64,000 nucleotides of DNA from Pedococcus cremeus. Lineage in GTDB: Bacteria > Actinomycetota > Actinomycetes > Actinomycetales > Dermatophilaceae. Below the pieces are notes generated by a model, which was not told where the DNA came from, made no database searches, and saw only the letters and a list, made by a program, of their open reading frames with translations. Shown piece by piece: positions 23,558 to 45,614 of this stretch. Location: assembly GCF_900111375.1 (NCBI RefSeq), contig NZ_FOHB01000004.1, positions 124,001 to 188,000 of the forward strand. The letters are read 5' to 3'. Every line of letters starts with the position of its first letter. Position 1 is the stretch's first letter. The translations under genes were made by a program, and so were the position numbers.

Positions 23558-23630
23558 GTCCCCATCGTCTAGCGGCCTAGGACCCCGCCCTTTCACGGCG
23601 GTAGCACGGGTTCGAATCCCGTTGGGGATA
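23558..23630 (+). tRNA. tRNA-Glu (anticodon TTC)
   Basis: Cloverleaf of 73 bases. Acceptor arms GTCCCCA and TGGGGAT pair with one G-T, the anticodon loop is CTTTCAC with TTC, the T-arm carries GGTTCGAATCC, and the discriminator is A. CCA is not encoded. It is followed at 22 bases by tRNA-Asp, and the two probably form one transcript. Confidence 0.95.
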
Positions 23631-23652: not shown

Positions 23653-23726
23653 GGCCCCGTAGCGCAGTTGGTTAGCGCGCCGCCCTGTCACGGCGGAGGT
23701 CGCGGGTTCGAGTCCCGTCGGGGTCG
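23653..23726 (+). tRNA. tRNA-Asp (anticodon GTC)
   Basis: Cloverleaf of 74 bases. Acceptor arms GGCCCCG and CGGGGTC, anticodon loop CTGTCAC with GTC, T-arm GGGTTCGAGTCCC, discriminator G. CCA is not encoded. A strong hairpin follows at 23735. Confidence 0.95.
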
Positions 23727-25664: not shown

Positions 25665-25741
25665 GGCCAGGTAGCTCAGTTGGTACGAGCGTCCGACTGA
25701 AAATCGGAAGGTCGGCGGTTCGACCCCGCCCCTGGCCACCA
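25665..25741 (+). tRNA. tRNA-Phe (anticodon GAA), CCA encoded
   Basis: Acceptor arms GGCCAGG and CCTGGCC, anticodon stem-loop GACTGAAAATC with GAA, T-arm GGTTCGACCCC, discriminator A, then CCA at 25739-25741 in the DNA. Unlike it, the Glu and Asp genes nearby lack an encoded CCA. A terminator follows directly. Confidence 0.95.
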
Positions 25742-38693: not shown

Positions 38694-38882
38694 TCAGAGG
38701 ACGTCGGAGAGCAGCGCGCGGACCTCGGCCTCGCGGTAGCGGCGGTGGCCACCCAGGGTGCGGATGGAGTTCAGCTTTCCAGCCTTGGCCCAGCGGGTCA
38801 CCGTCTTCGGGTCGACGCGGAAAAGCGAGGCCACCTCGGCAGGGGTGAGCAGCTTCTCGGCCTCAGTGGGGCGAGCGACCAT
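38694..38882 (-). CDS. bldC: BldC-type MerR-family DNA-binding protein
   Basis: Protein of 62 residues, the full length of BldC: LLTPAEVASLFRVDPKTVTRWAKAGKL, then SIRTLGGHRRYREAEVRALL. It is a one-domain winged helix that binds direct repeats and governs development in Streptomyces. Its neighbours (amino-acid dehydrogenase, DUF3073, purM, purF) match the Streptomyces bldC locus as I recall it, which supports the name. It is divergent from the dehydrogenase gene. Confidence 0.93.
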   Translation of the reverse strand: MVARPTEAEKLLTPAEVASLFRVDPKTVTRWAKAGKLNSIRTLGGHRRYREAEVRALLSDVL

Positions 38883-39075: not shown

Positions 39076-40242
39076 GTGACCACGTCCTCGTCGTCCTCGT
39101 CGCCGTCTGCCACGTCGCCGTCCAGCACAGCGCCGTCCGCCACCTCCCCTTCGTCGTCGCCCTCCACCGCGACCGCCTCTCTCTCCCAGCACGAGCAGGT
39201 CGTGTTCTGCCACGACAAGGCCACCGGGCTGCGAGCCATCATCGGCATCTACAGCACGGCGCTCGGGCCGGCCCTGGGCGGGACGCGGTTCTACCCGTAC
39301 GCCTCCGAGGAGGCGGCGCTCGACGACGTGCTGCGGCTGTCGAAGGGCATGGCCTACAAGAACGCCGTCGCCGGGCTCGAGCTCGGTGGAGGCAAGGCGG
39401 TCATCATCGGCGACCCCGCCACGGACAAGAGCCCTGAGCTGCTGCGCGCCTACGGACGCTTCGTCGAGAGCCTGAACGGCCGCTACGTCACCGCCTGCGA
39501 CGTGGGCACCTACGTCGCCGACATGGACGTCGTGAGCGAGACCACCCGGTGGGCGACCGGCCGCTCCGAGGCCAACGGCGGCGCCGGCGACAGCTCGGTG
39601 CTCACGGCATACGGCGTCTTCCAGGGGCAGCGCGCCTGCGCGCAGCACCTCTGGGGCGACCCCACCCTCAAGGGACGCACCGTCGGCATCGCCGGCGTGG
39701 GCAAGGTGGGCCGGCTGCTGACCGGGCACCTCGTCGAGGACGGCGCCACGGTGGTGGTGACCGACGTCAACGAGCAGGCGCTGGCCGACCTGACGGCGAA
39801 GTACCCGCAGGTCGAGGTCGTCGCCGACGCGGCGGCCCTCGTGCGCGCCGACCTCGACGTCTACGCGCCGTGCGCCCTCGGCGGCGCCCTCGACGACGCC
39901 ACCGTGGAGGCGCTGACCGCCAAGGTCGTCTGCGGAGGCGCCAACAACCAGCTGGTCGACGAGGGCGAGGGCGGCACCGCCGACCGGCTCGCCGCCCGCG
40001 GCATCACCTACGCCCCCGACTTCCTCGTCAACGCCGGCGGCGTCATCCAGGTGAGCGACGAGCTCCACGGCTTCGACTTCGAGCGGGCCAAGAAGGGCGC
40101 CACCGCGATCTTCGACCACACCCTCGAGGTGCTCCGCACGGCCGACGAGCGTGGCATCACCCCTGCCGCGGCCGCCGACCACATCGCCGAGCAGCGGATG
40201 GCCGCCGCCGGCCGCGGCGGCATCTGGCTGCCCGCTCGCTGA
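39076..40242 (+). CDS. Glu/Leu/Phe/Val dehydrogenase (valine dehydrogenase-like)
   Basis: NAD-dependent amino-acid dehydrogenase of 388 residues. The substrate/catalytic region is [13 protein letters not shown], then [23 protein letters not shown] (key part [18 protein letters not shown], catalytic Lys); the NAD motif is [10 protein letters not shown], and APCALGGA and GGANNQL follow. It would deaminate branched-chain amino acids. Oddly, residues 3-35 are a low-complexity Ser/Thr/Pro tract absent from typical members. The GTG start at 39076 has a GGAG-like site; initiation at a later codon cannot be excluded. Confidence 0.9.
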
Positions 40243-40263
40243 GGGGCTCCCGGCTCGGCCACC

Positions 40264-40298
40264 TGTCTCGACGCGCGGCGTGCCCGCGCGTCGAGACA
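40264..40298 (+). terminator. Terminator hairpin after amino-acid dehydrogenase gene
   Basis: TGTCTCGACGCGCGG (40264-40278) pairs with CCGCGCGTCGAGACA (40284-40298), a perfect 15-bp stem with a 5-base loop. Confidence 0.75.
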
Positions 40299-40353
40299 CC
40301 CGTCCGCCTGGTGGGCGGCAGGCGGCGACGAAACGCCGTCCGCCAGACAGGAC

Positions 40354-40378
40354 CAGCGACGCGAAACTTGCGTCGCTG
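40354..40378 (+). terminator. Second hairpin upstream of the DUF3073 transcript
   Basis: CAGCGACGC (40354-40362) and GCGTCGCTG (40370-40378) form a 9-bp stem around GAAACTT. It may be a second terminator or an operator; it lies just before the -10 like TATACA at 40401. Confidence 0.5.
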
Positions 40379-40400
40379 ATGTAGCGTTAGCACCACGACA

Positions 40401-40496
40401 TATACACGATTCCCGGGACCGCTCCGTGGAGTCGAAGGACTGTAGGTCCTCCGACTGGGCGATGCCGTCCCGGCAGACGCATGAGGGGGTCACGCC
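40401..40496 (+). ncRNA. Structured 5' leader of the DUF3073 gene
   Basis: A -10 like TATACA (40401-40406) is followed at the expected start site by a compact fold. CCGGGAC (40413-40419) closes with GTCCCGG (40467-40473). Inside, AGTCG-A-AGGAC (40430-40440) pairs with GTCCT-C-CGACT (40446-40456) around a 5-base loop, and short GCTCC/GGAG and GGC/GCC hairpins flank it. The ribosome site GAGGGGG lies after the fold. It looks like a regulatory multibranch RNA; ligand and class unknown. Confidence 0.6.
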
Positions 40497-40694
40497 ATGG
40501 GGCGCGGCCGGGCCAAAGCCAAGCAGACGAAGGTCGCTCGGGAGCTGAAGTACTTCTCTCCGAACACCGATCTCAGCGCGCTTGAGCGAGAACTACACGG
40601 CGGTTCGTACAAGCAGCCGGAGCGAGCCTCCGACGACCTCGACGAGACCGACGACTACGACGACTACGGGAAGTGGACGTCGAGCCAGGCTTGA
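40497..40694 (+). CDS. DUF3073 family protein
   Basis: Small protein of 65 residues: a very basic start (MGRGRAKAKQTKVARELKY, nucleic-acid-binding look), then FSPNTDLSALERELHG, and an acidic Asp-rich end (DDLDETDDYDDYGKW). This is the conserved actinobacterial DUF3073 family that lies near purM and bldC. Function unknown; a role in translation or RNA handling would fit the basic/acidic split but is a guess. Confidence 0.88.
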   Translation: MGRGRAKAKQTKVARELKYFSPNTDLSALERELHGGSYKQPERASDDLDETDDYDDYGKWTSSQA

Positions 40695-40896
40695 CCTGGT
40701 TCACCACCCATCGTCACCTCATGCTCGGGCCTGAGCCCGTGTGAGCTCGTCGGGCGCTGCGGTGCACGCAGGTCGTGCGCCGCAGCGCTCCGCTGAGGAC
40801 GGTCGCCTGCGCAGGTGTCATGCTGCGCGCTCACCCCGCACGCCCCCACGAGTGTCGTGCTGCGCGCGCAACCGGACGGTCTGGCACGCTGCGGCC

Positions 40897-42390
40897 ATGA
40901 GCACCAGTTCCGTCCTGAGTGACCGCGAGCGCCGGCTGGTCGAGACCAACGGCATCGAGGTCATCGCGGAGTCCGAGCGCACCGGCCGGGCACGCGACCT
41001 GTTCTGGCCGTGGTTCGCGGCCAACGTGTCCGTGTTCGGCCTCAGCTGGGGCGCCTTCGTCCTCGACTTCGGCATCTCCTTCTGGCAGGCGGTGCTGGTC
41101 GGCGTCGTCGGCGTCGTGCTGTCGTTCGCCGTGTGCGGTGTCATCGCCATCGCGGGCAAGCGCAGCTCCACCCCCACGATGGTCCTCAGCCGTGCCGCGT
41201 TCGGCGTCCGGGGCCAGAAGGTGCCCGGCGTCGTCTCGTGGCTGCTGTCGATCGGCTGGGAGACCGTGCTGGCCATCCTGGCCACGCTGGCCACCGCCAC
41301 GGTGCTCACCCGCCTCGGCTGGGGCGGCGGGACCACCACCAAGGTGCTGGCGGCCGTCGTCGTCGCGGCGCTGGTCGTGGCCGCCTCCGTCATGGGCTAC
41401 CACGTGATCATGCGCCTGCAGTCGGTGCTCACCTGGGTGACCGGGGCCCTGTCGGTGCTGTACATCCTCTTCACCCTCGACGAGGTGCGCTGGTCGACGG
41501 TCAGCGCCCTGCCGGGCGGGTCCGCGACGGCGGTGCTCGGCGCGTTCGTCATGGTCATGACCGGGTTCGGCCTGGGCTGGGTCAACATCGCCTCCGACTG
41601 GTCGCGGTACCTGCCGCGCCAGACCCCCGGCTCGCAGGTCGTCGTCTGGAACACGGTCGGTGGCTCGCTGGCTCCGGTCATCCTCGTCGTCTTCGGGCTG
41701 CTGCTGGCCGGCTCCTCCCCCGACCTGAAGAAGTCCATCGCGGCCGACCCCATCGGGGCGCTGGCAGCGGCCCTGCCCACGTGGTTCCTGCTGCCGTTCC
41801 TCGTCGTCGCCGTCCTGGGCCTGGTGAGCGGGGCCGTGCTGGGCATCTACTCCTCGGGGCTCACGCTCCTCTCGCTCGGGCTGCCGGTCCCCCGCCCGGC
41901 TGCCGCGGCCGTCGACGGCGTGCTGCTGACGCTCGGCACGTTCTACGTCGTGTTTGTGGCGAGTGAGACGTTCCTGACGCAGTTCCAGGGCTTCCTCATC
42001 ACCCTCGGCGTCCCGATCGCCGCCTGGGCGGGGATCGTGATGGCCGACATCGTGCTGCGCCGGCGCGACTACGACGAGCCCGCCCTCTTCGACAGCCGTG
42101 GCCGGTACGGCGACGTCAGCTGGTTCGCGGTGGGGCTCATGCTGCTGTGCTCGCTCGTCGGCTGGGGCCTGGTCACCAACACCAGCGCAGGCTGGCTCCA
42201 GTGGCAGGGCTACCTCCTGGGTCCCCTCGGTCTCGGCGGCAAGGAGGGCGACTGGGCGTATGCCGGGCTCGGAGTCCTCGTCTCCCTCGTCCTGGCGTTC
42301 GTGGCGTATGCCGCGCTGCGCCGGGGCACCGTGCGGCGCCAGGAGGACCTCGCGGTGGAGGACGTCAGGGCGGCGCAGGAGGTCTCCTGA
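40897..42390 (+). CDS. NCS1 family cytosine/purine/allantoin permease
   Basis: Membrane transporter of 497 residues with 12 predicted helices. It starts with IEVIAESERTGRARDLFWPWFAANVSVFGLSWG (key part RDLFWPWFAANVSVFG), the typical helix 1 of cytosine permease-like proteins, and has WVNIASDWSRYLP in helix 6. It imports nucleobases or related compounds. It overlaps by one base the gene of an isochorismatase-fold hydrolase, so both may serve one catabolic path for an imported amide or ureide. Confidence 0.88.
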   Translation: MSTSSVLSDRERRLVETNGIEVIAESERTGRARDLFWPWFAANVSVFGLSWGAFVLDFGISFWQAVLVGVVGVVLSFAVCGVIAIAGKRSSTPTMVLSRAAFGVRGQKVPGVVSWLLSIGWETVLAILATLATATVLTRLGWGGGTTTKVLAAVVVAALVVAASVMGYHVIMRLQSVLTWVTGALSVLYILFTLDEVRWSTVSALPGGSATAVLGAFVMVMTGFGLGWVNIASDWSRYLPRQTPGSQVVVWNTVGGSLAPVILVVFGLLLAGSSPDLKKSIAADPIGALAAALPTWFLLPFLVVAVLGLVSGAVLGIYSSGLTLLSLGLPVPRPAAAAVDGVLLTLGTFYVVFVASETFLTQFQGFLITLGVPIAAWAGIVMADIVLRRRDYDEPALFDSRGRYGDVSWFAVGLMLLCSLVGWGLVTNTSAGWLQWQGYLLGPLGLGGKEGDWAYAGLGVLVSLVLAFVAYAALRRGTVRRQEDLAVEDVRAAQEVS

Positions 42391-43428: not shown

Positions 43429-44544
43429 TCAGGCGAGCGGGTGCTCGCCCACCACCTGCACCGCGCCGCCCTCGACGCCCTTGGCGCCGTGCACGACCTC
43501 GACGCCGTCCTCGACCGGCGCACCCTCGAGGTCGGTGACCTCACCGAGCACCCACGACGGTATGCCGCGGGCCTCCAGGGTGCGCAGGCCCAGGTCGGCC
43601 TGCTCGCGGGGCAGCAGCGCGACGAAGCCGATGCCCATGTTGAGGGTGCGCTCGAGGTCGGCGCGCGGCACCCGGCCGAGCTCAGCGACGGTGGTGAAGA
43701 CGGGCGGCGGGGTCCAGGTCGACCGGTCGAGGCGGGCGAAGACGCCCTGCGGCAGGACCCGGGCGAGGTTGGCGGCCAGCCCGCCGCCGGTCACGTGCGA
43801 GAGCGCGTGCAGGTCGACGCCGTCGGTGCGGATGAGGTGGAGCAGGTCGGCGGAGTAGACCCGGGTGGGGGTGAGCAGCTCCTCGCCGAGGGTGCGGCCG
43901 AACTCGGGGACCTCGCGGTCGAGCGCCCAGCCGGCCGCTTCGACGACGCGGCGCACGAGCGAGTAGCCGTTGGAGTGCAGCCCGGAGGAGCCGAGCGCCA
44001 GCACGACGTCGCCGGCGACCACCCGCTGTGGGCCCAGGACGTCGTCGAACTCGACCACGCCGGTCGCCGCGCCGGCCACGTCGTACTCCTCGGGGTCGAG
44101 CAGGCCCGGGTGCTCGGCGGTCTCGCCGCCGACGAGGGCCACGCCGGCCTGCTCGCAGGCGGCCGCGATGCCCGAGACGATCGCGGCGATGCGCTCGGGG
44201 ACGACCTTGCCGGTCGCGATGTAGTCGGTCATGAACAGCGGCTCGGCGCCACAGACCACGATGTCGTCGACCACCATGCCGACGAGGTCGAACCCGATGG
44301 TGTCGTGCCGGTCGAGCGCCTGGGCGATGGCGACCTTGGTGCCCACCCCGTCGGTCGAGGTGGCGAGCACCGGCCGGGTCATGCCCGCCAGAGCGGAGGC
44401 GTCGAACATGCCGGCGAAGCCACCGAGGCCACCGAGGACCTCCGGCCTGGTGGCCCGGCGCACCGAGGCCTTCATCAGCTCGACGGCCCGGTCACCCGCC
44501 TCGACGTCGACTCCGGCGGCGGCATACGTGATGGGCTCGCTCAC
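43429..44544 (-). CDS. purM: Phosphoribosylformylglycinamidine cyclo-ligase (AIR synthetase)
   Basis: Fifth step of purine synthesis: FGAM plus ATP gives AIR. 371 residues, full length. Motifs: ITYAAAGVDVEAGD at the start, STDGVGTKVAIA, MVVDDIVVCGAEPLFMTDYIA (key part VVCGAEPLFMTD), LVGGETAEHPG, and HVTGGGLAANL. GTG 44544. In many actinobacteria it follows purF directly; here a DUF559 gene and an opposite-strand membrane gene lie between. Confidence 0.96.
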   Translation of the reverse strand: MSEPITYAAAGVDVEAGDRAVELMKASVRRATRPEVLGGLGGFAGMFDASALAGMTRPVLATSTDGVGTKVAIAQALDRHDTIGFDLVGMVVDDIVVCGAEPLFMTDYIATGKVVPERIAAIVSGIAAACEQAGVALVGGETAEHPGLLDPEEYDVAGAATGVVEFDDVLGPQRVVAGDVVLALGSSGLHSNGYSLVRRVVEAAGWALDREVPEFGRTLGEELLTPTRVYSADLLHLIRTDGVDLHALSHVTGGGLAANLARVLPQGVFARLDRSTWTPPPVFTTVAELGRVPRADLERTLNMGIGFVALLPREQADLGLRTLEARGIPSWVLGEVTDLEGAPVEDGVEVVHGAKGVEGGAVQVVGEHPLA

Positions 44545-44663
44545 GGCTCCAGCGTAGTGGGCTCCCGGCACCGGCCGACCGCCGCGTGCACCGTGTGGAC
44601 AGCCGGCAGGAAGGGTCGTATACCTGCGGTGACAGGCGTTCGCCCGCGGTTGAGGGGGCTGAC

Positions 44664-45614
44664 ATGGCGACGGGCATGGTGACACGGCAGGCGGGCAGCG
44701 TCCTCAGCACCTACCGGTACCTGCGCGTCGGCATGGTGCTCCTCGTGCTGTTGCTCGCGGCCGCCGTCACGCTGCAGGTCTTCAGCCCAGACCCCGACTG
44801 CTGGCAGCGCTCGGTCAGCGCCTACTACTACACACCGGCCCGGGCCGTCTTCGTGGCGAGCCTGTGCGCCATCGGCGCCTGCCTCATCGTCTACCGCGGC
44901 AACACCGACGGCGAGGACATCGCGCTGAACGCCTCGGGCCTGCTCGCGTTCGTGGTGGCCTTCGTGCCGACCCAGGTCGACGCCACCTGCCCGGCGAGCA
45001 ACGTGCCGTCACCGGCGGAGCTCGACGCCGCCGTCACCAACAACGTGTGGGCGCTGTATGCCGCCGGCATCGCCCTGACCGCCGTGTCGTGGTTCCTGCG
45101 CTCCCGCACCGCCCCCCGCGGGCGCGGCGGCGGCCTGTCGGTCTGGCCACTGGTGTTCTCCAGCGTGGCCGTCGTGGTCTTCCCGTTCGTGTTCGTCACC
45201 TGGCACGACGCGGTGCGCGACCACGGGCACGACGTGGCGGCCATCGCCCTCTTCGCGGGCATCGTGGTCGTGGTCGGCATGAATGCCCTCGGCCTGGCCA
45301 CCCACTCCGGCGCGGATGTGCGCCACGAGTCGGGCAGGCCGTCCGTCCGCCGGGCGGCCAACCGCTACACGGCCGTCGGGCTGGCCATGCTCGGCACCTT
45401 CGTCGGGGTGCTCGTGGCCCACTGGGCGGTGCCGGGCTTCGTGCAGTGGCTCTTCTGGCTCGAGGCGCTGCTCATCGCCGAGTTCGCCGTCTACTGGGTG
45501 CTGCAGACCATCGAGCTGTGGCACGTGGTCGACCGCAGCGAGTCTCCGAGCCCCTCCCCCAACGCCGTCACCCCGGCCCCGCCTCCGACGACCCCTGATC
45601 CCCGGTCGAGGTAA
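44664..45614 (+). CDS. Integral membrane protein
   Basis: Protein of 316 residues with about seven membrane helices and two extracellular Cys (PDPDCWQ, DATCPAS). It contains SVSAYYYTPARAVFVASL, a pattern seen in DUF998-like proteins, but the match is weak. The C-terminus is Pro/Ser-rich, and its TAA stop (45612-45614) lies inside the palindromic element at 45600. It is opposite in strand to purM and purF and interrupts them. Confidence 0.72.
   Translation: MATGMVTRQAGSVLSTYRYLRVGMVLLVLLLAAAVTLQVFSPDPDCWQRSVSAYYYTPARAVFVASLCAIGACLIVYRGNTDGEDIALNASGLLAFVVAFVPTQVDATCPASNVPSPAELDAAVTNNVWALYAAGIALTAVSWFLRSRTAPRGRGGGLSVWPLVFSSVAVVVFPFVFVTWHDAVRDHGHDVAAIALFAGIVVVVGMNALGLATHSGADVRHESGRPSVRRAANRYTAVGLAMLGTFVGVLVAHWAVPGFVQWLFWLEALLIAEFAVYWVLQTIELWHVVDRSESPSPSPNAVTPAPPPTTPDPRSR

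Follow-up and report, generated by a model that had tools for sequence, protein, structure and literature searches.

Ribosomal proteins lower their own translation by binding to the leaders of their mRNAs, and in the autogenous leaders of the S15, S6:S18 and L20 types a hairpin lies near the ribosome site of the gene for a small basic protein. Some riboswitches, in turn, sequester the ribosome site. We describe here the leader of a DUF3073 gene located in the window (by which we mean the whole 64,000-nucleotide stretch of Pedococcus cremeus DNA that was analyzed) and a conserved hairpin within it, referred to as P1. Like the S15, S6:S18 and L20 leaders, P1 is a short hairpin with internal loops situated just 5' of the ribosome site of a gene coding for a small basic protein; unlike them, the DUF3073 product is not a known ribosomal protein, its binding is only proposed, and no Rfam leader family matches. 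The DUF3073 leader resembles the ribosome-site-sequestering riboswitches in having competing pairings near the ribosome site, but P1 is found convincingly at one gene only, is variable in length, and has no sign of a ligand core. Finally, P1 is a GC-rich hairpin in a leader, as intrinsic terminators and attenuators are, but it has no T run of the kind that follows an attenuator hairpin, and no intrinsic terminator was found in 40200-40900.

Searches against Rfam (release 15) gave no family at the gathering threshold in the leader and none in eight loci with DUF3073, in agreement with the preliminary description, which had recognized no named riboswitch class; none of the five sub-threshold matches in 40200-40900 overlaps 40413-40473. 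The literature searched, in partial form and with subscription journals mostly outside its coverage, contained no description of this leader and no function for DUF3073. We regard P1 as a candidate for a new family among the cis-regulatory structured RNAs, a kind already known, with a function that we infer.

The DUF3073 gene and the layout of its leader

Both the sequence and a low-confidence structure model point to a DUF3073 protein whose N-terminal helix is basic and whose tail is acidic. The model (pTM only 0.30) predicts helices at residues 3-19, 26-35 and 56-62, the first 20 residues contain a median of 7 lysines and arginines across 182 proteins, and a sequence search found no relative in the PDB. 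The named loci nearest to that of the window are from Phycicoccus and Knoellia. The gene is present in 75 of 78 near genomes (one of the three lacking it is a 98% complete genome) and in all 148 genomes of a class survey; a survey of the phylum found it in 5 of 60 genomes, all five inside the class, with no occurrence among the 55 genomes that lie outside it. DUF3073 is reported to be essential in three species, C. diphtheriae, C. glutamicum and M. tuberculosis (PMC10166564), and another study lists Rv0810c, the M. tuberculosis homologue, as an association hit for rifampicin and rifabutin (PMC9363015). A conserved leader would offer a regulatory handle on DUF3073. The features of the locus and its neighbors are collected in Table 1; the MerR/HTH_17 regulator is one that we take to be BldC-like.

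Table 1. Features of the DUF3073 locus of the window
Feature	Position	Strand	Basis or detail
MerR/HTH_17 regulator	38694-38882	-	
Leucine/valine-type dehydrogenase	39076-40242	+	
Probable extended -10 box TG-TAGCGT	40380-40387 (TAGCGT 40382-40387)	+	Sequence reading; many relatives have TGTACCGT or TAGCGT in the same place
Probable mRNA 5' end (A40392 or A40395) and A/C-rich segment	40392-40412	+	Inferred from distance to the -10 box
Conserved hairpin P1	40413-40473	+	Covariation in A1 and A4; R1 match of 37.8 bits
P1 outer stem, 7 bp, CCGGGAC/GTCCCGG	40413-40419/40467-40473	+	
P1 C.C mismatch	C40420/C40466	+	
P1 2-bp step GC/GC	40421-40422/40464-40465	+	Followed by a 2x2 loop
P1 CGT/GCG pairs inside the 2x2 loop	40425-40427/40459-40461	+	
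Lineage-variable apical arm AGTCG/CGACT and AGGACT/GGTCCT	40430-40456	+	Leader fold; RNAalifold on A1
Ribosome binding site AGGGGGTC	40484-40491	+	GGGGG at most 18 nt from the start in 173 of 174 unique leaders
DUF3073 gene	40497-40694	+	65 aa; PF11273, E 2.8e-25, 89.2 bits
Cytosine/purine-type permease	within 40741-42390	+	
AIR synthase-type gene, purM	43429-44685	-	

Three further observations concern the gene and its surroundings. A sequence labelled 'Bacteriophage sp.' (MT835825.1, L217; unverified, from human faeces) carries the dehydrogenase, a DUF3073 region (83% identity across 69% of the query) and the permease in the same order as in the window, and looks like a mislabelled piece of bacterial chromosome; none of 18 pattern-matched stretches in viral contigs encodes a relative. 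At the start of the gene (40500-40508 and homologues) the glycine 2 codon is GGG in 132 of 175 unique genes, whereas that of residue 4 is GGC in 168 of 175, which suggests a constraint at the nucleotide level. Lastly, a perfect 13-bp inverted repeat without a T run (40265-40297) lies 3' of the dehydrogenase stop codon and is a possible terminator.

Leaders could be read by pattern for 196 of 198 DUF3073 loci, all but L068, which was read separately, and the mistaken locus L179. Many of them share a common order: TGTACCGT or a TAGCGT-like box, CACGA or CAGGA, a hairpin, GAGGGGGTC and the start codon. The hairpin recurs in the form CGGGGC-C-GCC...GGC-C-GCCCCG, mostly at a spacing of 11-14 nt from GAGGGGGTC. 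A consensus scan found no sigma-70 site at the DUF3073 leader. In the window CACGA is at 40394-40398, its CACG being nearly invariant among 30 family leaders, and in many families either CACGA or CAGGA recurs close to where transcription is expected to begin. The hairpin segment is probably transcribed. The sole leader among the 174 unique ones without GGGGG near the start (L187, from a small Bifidobacterium-like genome) has AAGGAGG.

The fold had been described as starting at the predicted transcription start. The interval marked out for it, however, opens at a palindrome (CAGCGACGC/GCGTCGCTG, 40354-40378) that lies immediately 5' of the probable -10 box, so its first part is probably not transcribed. 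Among the 196 loci the palindrome is present only in the window and in L006, and it is a possible operator of a small clade.

Comparison of leader structures

The leader had also been described as a multibranch fold closed by a 7-bp stem. Such a fold is indeed the minimum-energy structure of the isolated leader (40392-40496; -41.2 kcal/mol, closed by GATTCCC/GGGGGTC), with a stability not above chance (z -0.87; 40 of 200 shuffles as good), and the whole interval gives a z of -1.01 (19 of 100 shuffles as good). With 24 coding bases added, the minimum-energy fold of the window's leader loses both the closing stem and P1. Stability becomes informative when averaged over 178 leaders: the mean z is -1.27 for -80 to -17, whereas a coding stretch gives -0.56 and the region upstream -0.18. 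A single fold decides nothing here, and we therefore turned to comparison with relatives.

Alignment A1 contains 30 of the 44 same-family leaders and was made with plain MAFFT, without fitting to structure. The P1 pairs are formed in 94.4% of its cells and 5 of the 12 pairs show two-sided change, a number reached in 1 of 500 shuffles (at least 5; kinship ignored). The covariation score of 0.205 is reached in none of 500 shuffles (0.139, sd 0.012), and the best version obtained by sliding the structure scores 0.094. RNAalifold, unaided, recovers 9 of the 12 P1 pairs from A1 and keeps three apical pairs, in which 7, 2 and 3 of the 30 sequences have two-sided changes. The closing stem fares differently as a candidate for a conserved fold: none of its seven pairs changes on both sides in the 30 family leaders, and it competes with P1, two of its C residues being shared. 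It is 88% paired in the family, and its outermost G-C forms in 13 of 29. We reject it as the conserved fold, while allowing that some species may form it.

Two further alignments cover leaders of other families. In A3, which comprises 38 such leaders picked for short hairpins, 4 of 9 pairs show two-sided change (at least 4 in 18 of 500 shuffles) and the covariation score is 0.170 against 0.077 in shuffles, none of 500 of which reach it. In A4, a model-fitted alignment of 103 distinct model matches that includes chance rows, two-sided change is seen in 6 of 9 pairs (2 of 500 shuffles) and in 28 cells (0 of 500). The arms vary together by lineage: Mycobacterium has GGAGC/GCTCC, the window and its nearest relatives have GGGAC/GTCCC, Kineococcus (L139) has GGGGTC/GACCCC, L053 has CGGGTC/GACCCG and L049 has CCAGGGC/GCCCTGG. 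On this comparative evidence P1 is above chance, its paired arms carrying the compensatory changes characteristic of a cis-regulatory structured RNA (as judged against shuffle nulls that ignore kinship), and the conserved unit is the one hairpin lying inside the fold first proposed, not the multibranch architecture. The central proposal of the preliminary description, a structured leader in front of a conserved and uncharacterized actinobacterial gene, DUF3073, is borne out by these changes, which were found by the comparison of homologous leaders that it had suggested.

The long arm with an opposed single-base irregularity, also noted at the outset, corresponds to the C.C mismatch of P1. Five pairs, a C.C mismatch and two further pairs are present in 57 of 172 unique leaders, compared with 2.4% of 3440 shuffles, and this strict pattern is absent from the other 115. 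C is found on both sides of the mismatch in 73 of 134 detected hairpins; C.C with GCCGC in both arms is kept in two Corynebacterium leaders of lower GC content (L114 and L120) and not in a third (L140), and by eye P1 is not evident in L140 or in the Bifidobacterium-like L187. The 3' end of P1 is 11 nt ahead of the GGGGG of the ribosome site in the window, and 77 of the 134 hairpins end 11-14 nt from it. The length between the arms ranges from 9 to 58 among the hairpins detected, a set that may include spurious ones.

These features bear on whether the repeat acts as RNA at all. An inverted repeat near a promoter could be a DNA operator for a dimeric regulator, but the spacing of the arms varies widely, the both-sided changes track pairing, and a mismatch with C at both of its top-strand positions, as in the 73 hairpins above, is not palindromic; we consider an operator very improbable. 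A separate explanation for the mismatch, in which the GCCGC arms pair with GCGGC in the first codons, was rejected, because two GCCGC motifs are commoner where the early GCGGC is missing (15 of 24 leaders, compared with 31 of 151 others).

Occurrence of the hairpin

A model, R1, was built from 38 leaders of other families, with no same-family leader in its training. It finds the window's leader at 37.8 bits, the next match in the same genome scoring 18.5 bits (E 0.147), and at E<=0.001 it detects 26 of the 44 same-family leaders, including that of the window. By eye, 16 of the 18 that it misses fold as P1-like hairpins (among them L002, L022 and L032), and no P1-like fold was seen in single folds of L013 and L028, the stretch for L028 being short. 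For eleven leaders of the Leekyejoonella/Luteipulveratus type we relied on single folds, because MAFFT misaligned their arms.

In the class survey R1 has a match somewhere in 78 of 148 genomes and none in 70 (E<=0.01, strict filters). At E<1e-4 there are 33 matches in the 148 genomes, 31 of which are, by eye, directly 5' of DUF3073, many of them being training leaders. Such a fixed position upstream of homologous genes is expected of a cis-regulatory structured RNA. The two E<1e-4 matches away from DUF3073, a terminator-like hairpin and an apparent coding sequence, look like chance, and apart from these two the matches elsewhere are weaker. Four of the matches away from DUF3073 were inspected by eye as candidate members of a regulon and set aside, those in G203 and G195 being terminator-like hairpins and those in G137 and G107 apparent coding sequence. 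In the genome of the window and the 148 genomes, with four matches away from DUF3073 inspected, the element is found convincingly at DUF3073 only. Second copies of DUF3073 have the AAGGGAGT ribosome site in 4 of 6 cases and a GCCGC-type P1 in none of 6, some having another GC hairpin by eye.

This restriction to one gene speaks to two further explanations. The leader is structured, and the nearby purM and leucine dehydrogenase genes would make a purine or an amino acid the conceivable ligand of a metabolite riboswitch. The element is small, however, its interarm length runs from 9 to 58, it has no Rfam match, and neither the genome of the window (next match 18.5 bits) nor, convincingly, the 148 genomes have it at a second gene; riboswitches usually, though not always, recur at several genes belonging to one pathway, a pattern not seen for P1. 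We think a metabolite riboswitch highly unlikely. A hairpin with a conserved mismatch and a 2x2 loop at a single gene could equally be the site of some other trans-acting factor, such as a ribosomal protein, an RNase, a cold-shock protein or a global RNA binder, but if such a factor also served elsewhere, further sites in each genome might be expected, and none stands out; this too we consider very improbable. With one site, always at DUF3073, autogenous control fits better than a metabolite regulon.

Possible modes of action

Among active models the simplest is autogenous control of translation, and among passive ones it is a hairpin holding the ribosome site open. We tentatively prefer the former, in which P1 would act in cis on the translation of DUF3073, probably through binding of the DUF3073 protein to its own mRNA. 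P1 would form as the mRNA is made, with about 11 nt separating its end from the ribosome site, and the two recurring GC-C-GC arms with their C.C mismatch would constitute the recognition site. Excess DUF3073 protein, which is small and has a strongly basic N-terminal helix, would then bind P1 and lower its own translation. If control is autogenous, the leader also provides a direct test of RNA binding by DUF3073.

The passive model dispenses with a ligand, the hairpin insulating the ribosome site and protecting the mRNA from decay or misfolding. The pyrimidine-rich 3' arm would pair with GGGGG unless held by the purine-rich 5' arm, so that P1 would keep the site open, and the ribosome site is on average somewhat more unpaired in native leaders than when the sequence preceding it is shuffled (0.33 and 0.26; native higher in 119 of 179). 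The model also sits well with the lack of a convincing second gene carrying the element. The gain in accessibility is small, however, and the count ignores relatedness; moreover, the recurrent C.C with GCCGC in both arms, kept in Corynebacterium L114 and L120 although not in L140, is more than a passive hairpin would require. A passive role is possible, if on the unlikely side.

A different pairing emerges from A3, on which RNAalifold chooses no P1 pair and instead pairs the 3' arm with the ribosome site, the five pairs being present in 37, 38, 38, 38 and 37 of the 38 sequences. The leader could accordingly be a two-state switch, in which GCCCC of the 3' arm pairs either with GGGGC of the 5' arm (open) or with GGGGU of the ribosome site (closed), a factor or condition shifting the balance. 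Changes in the outer arms tend to keep purines on the 5' side and pyrimidines on the 3' side, with 4 of 4 such pairs in 31 of 110 distinct best hairpins against 8% of shuffles (descent ignored), and the opposite orientation is about as frequent as in shuffles (7 of 110 and 4.9%). Yet the closed pairing has no two-sided change, given how little the ribosome site varies, the stem of 3' arm and ribosome site has fewer pairs than P1, and the Propionibacterium/Tessaracoccus leaders L159 and L178 have CGCGG/CCGCG arms that are unable to close the site. A switch of this general kind seems to us improbable.

Autogenous control and the closed pairing can be combined in a switch widespread in actinobacteria, with DUF3073 binding the C.C hairpin and the released 3' arm closing the ribosome site. 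We offer this fuller scheme as a rather doubtful extension of the preferred reading; if true, DUF3073 would be added to the RNA-binding proteins, and the hairpin would help to find the RNA that it naturally targets.

Elsewhere in the window there is a SAM-IV riboswitch (1802-1912, 89.9 bits), and tRNA genes are located at 23558-23630, 23653-23726 and 25665-25738.
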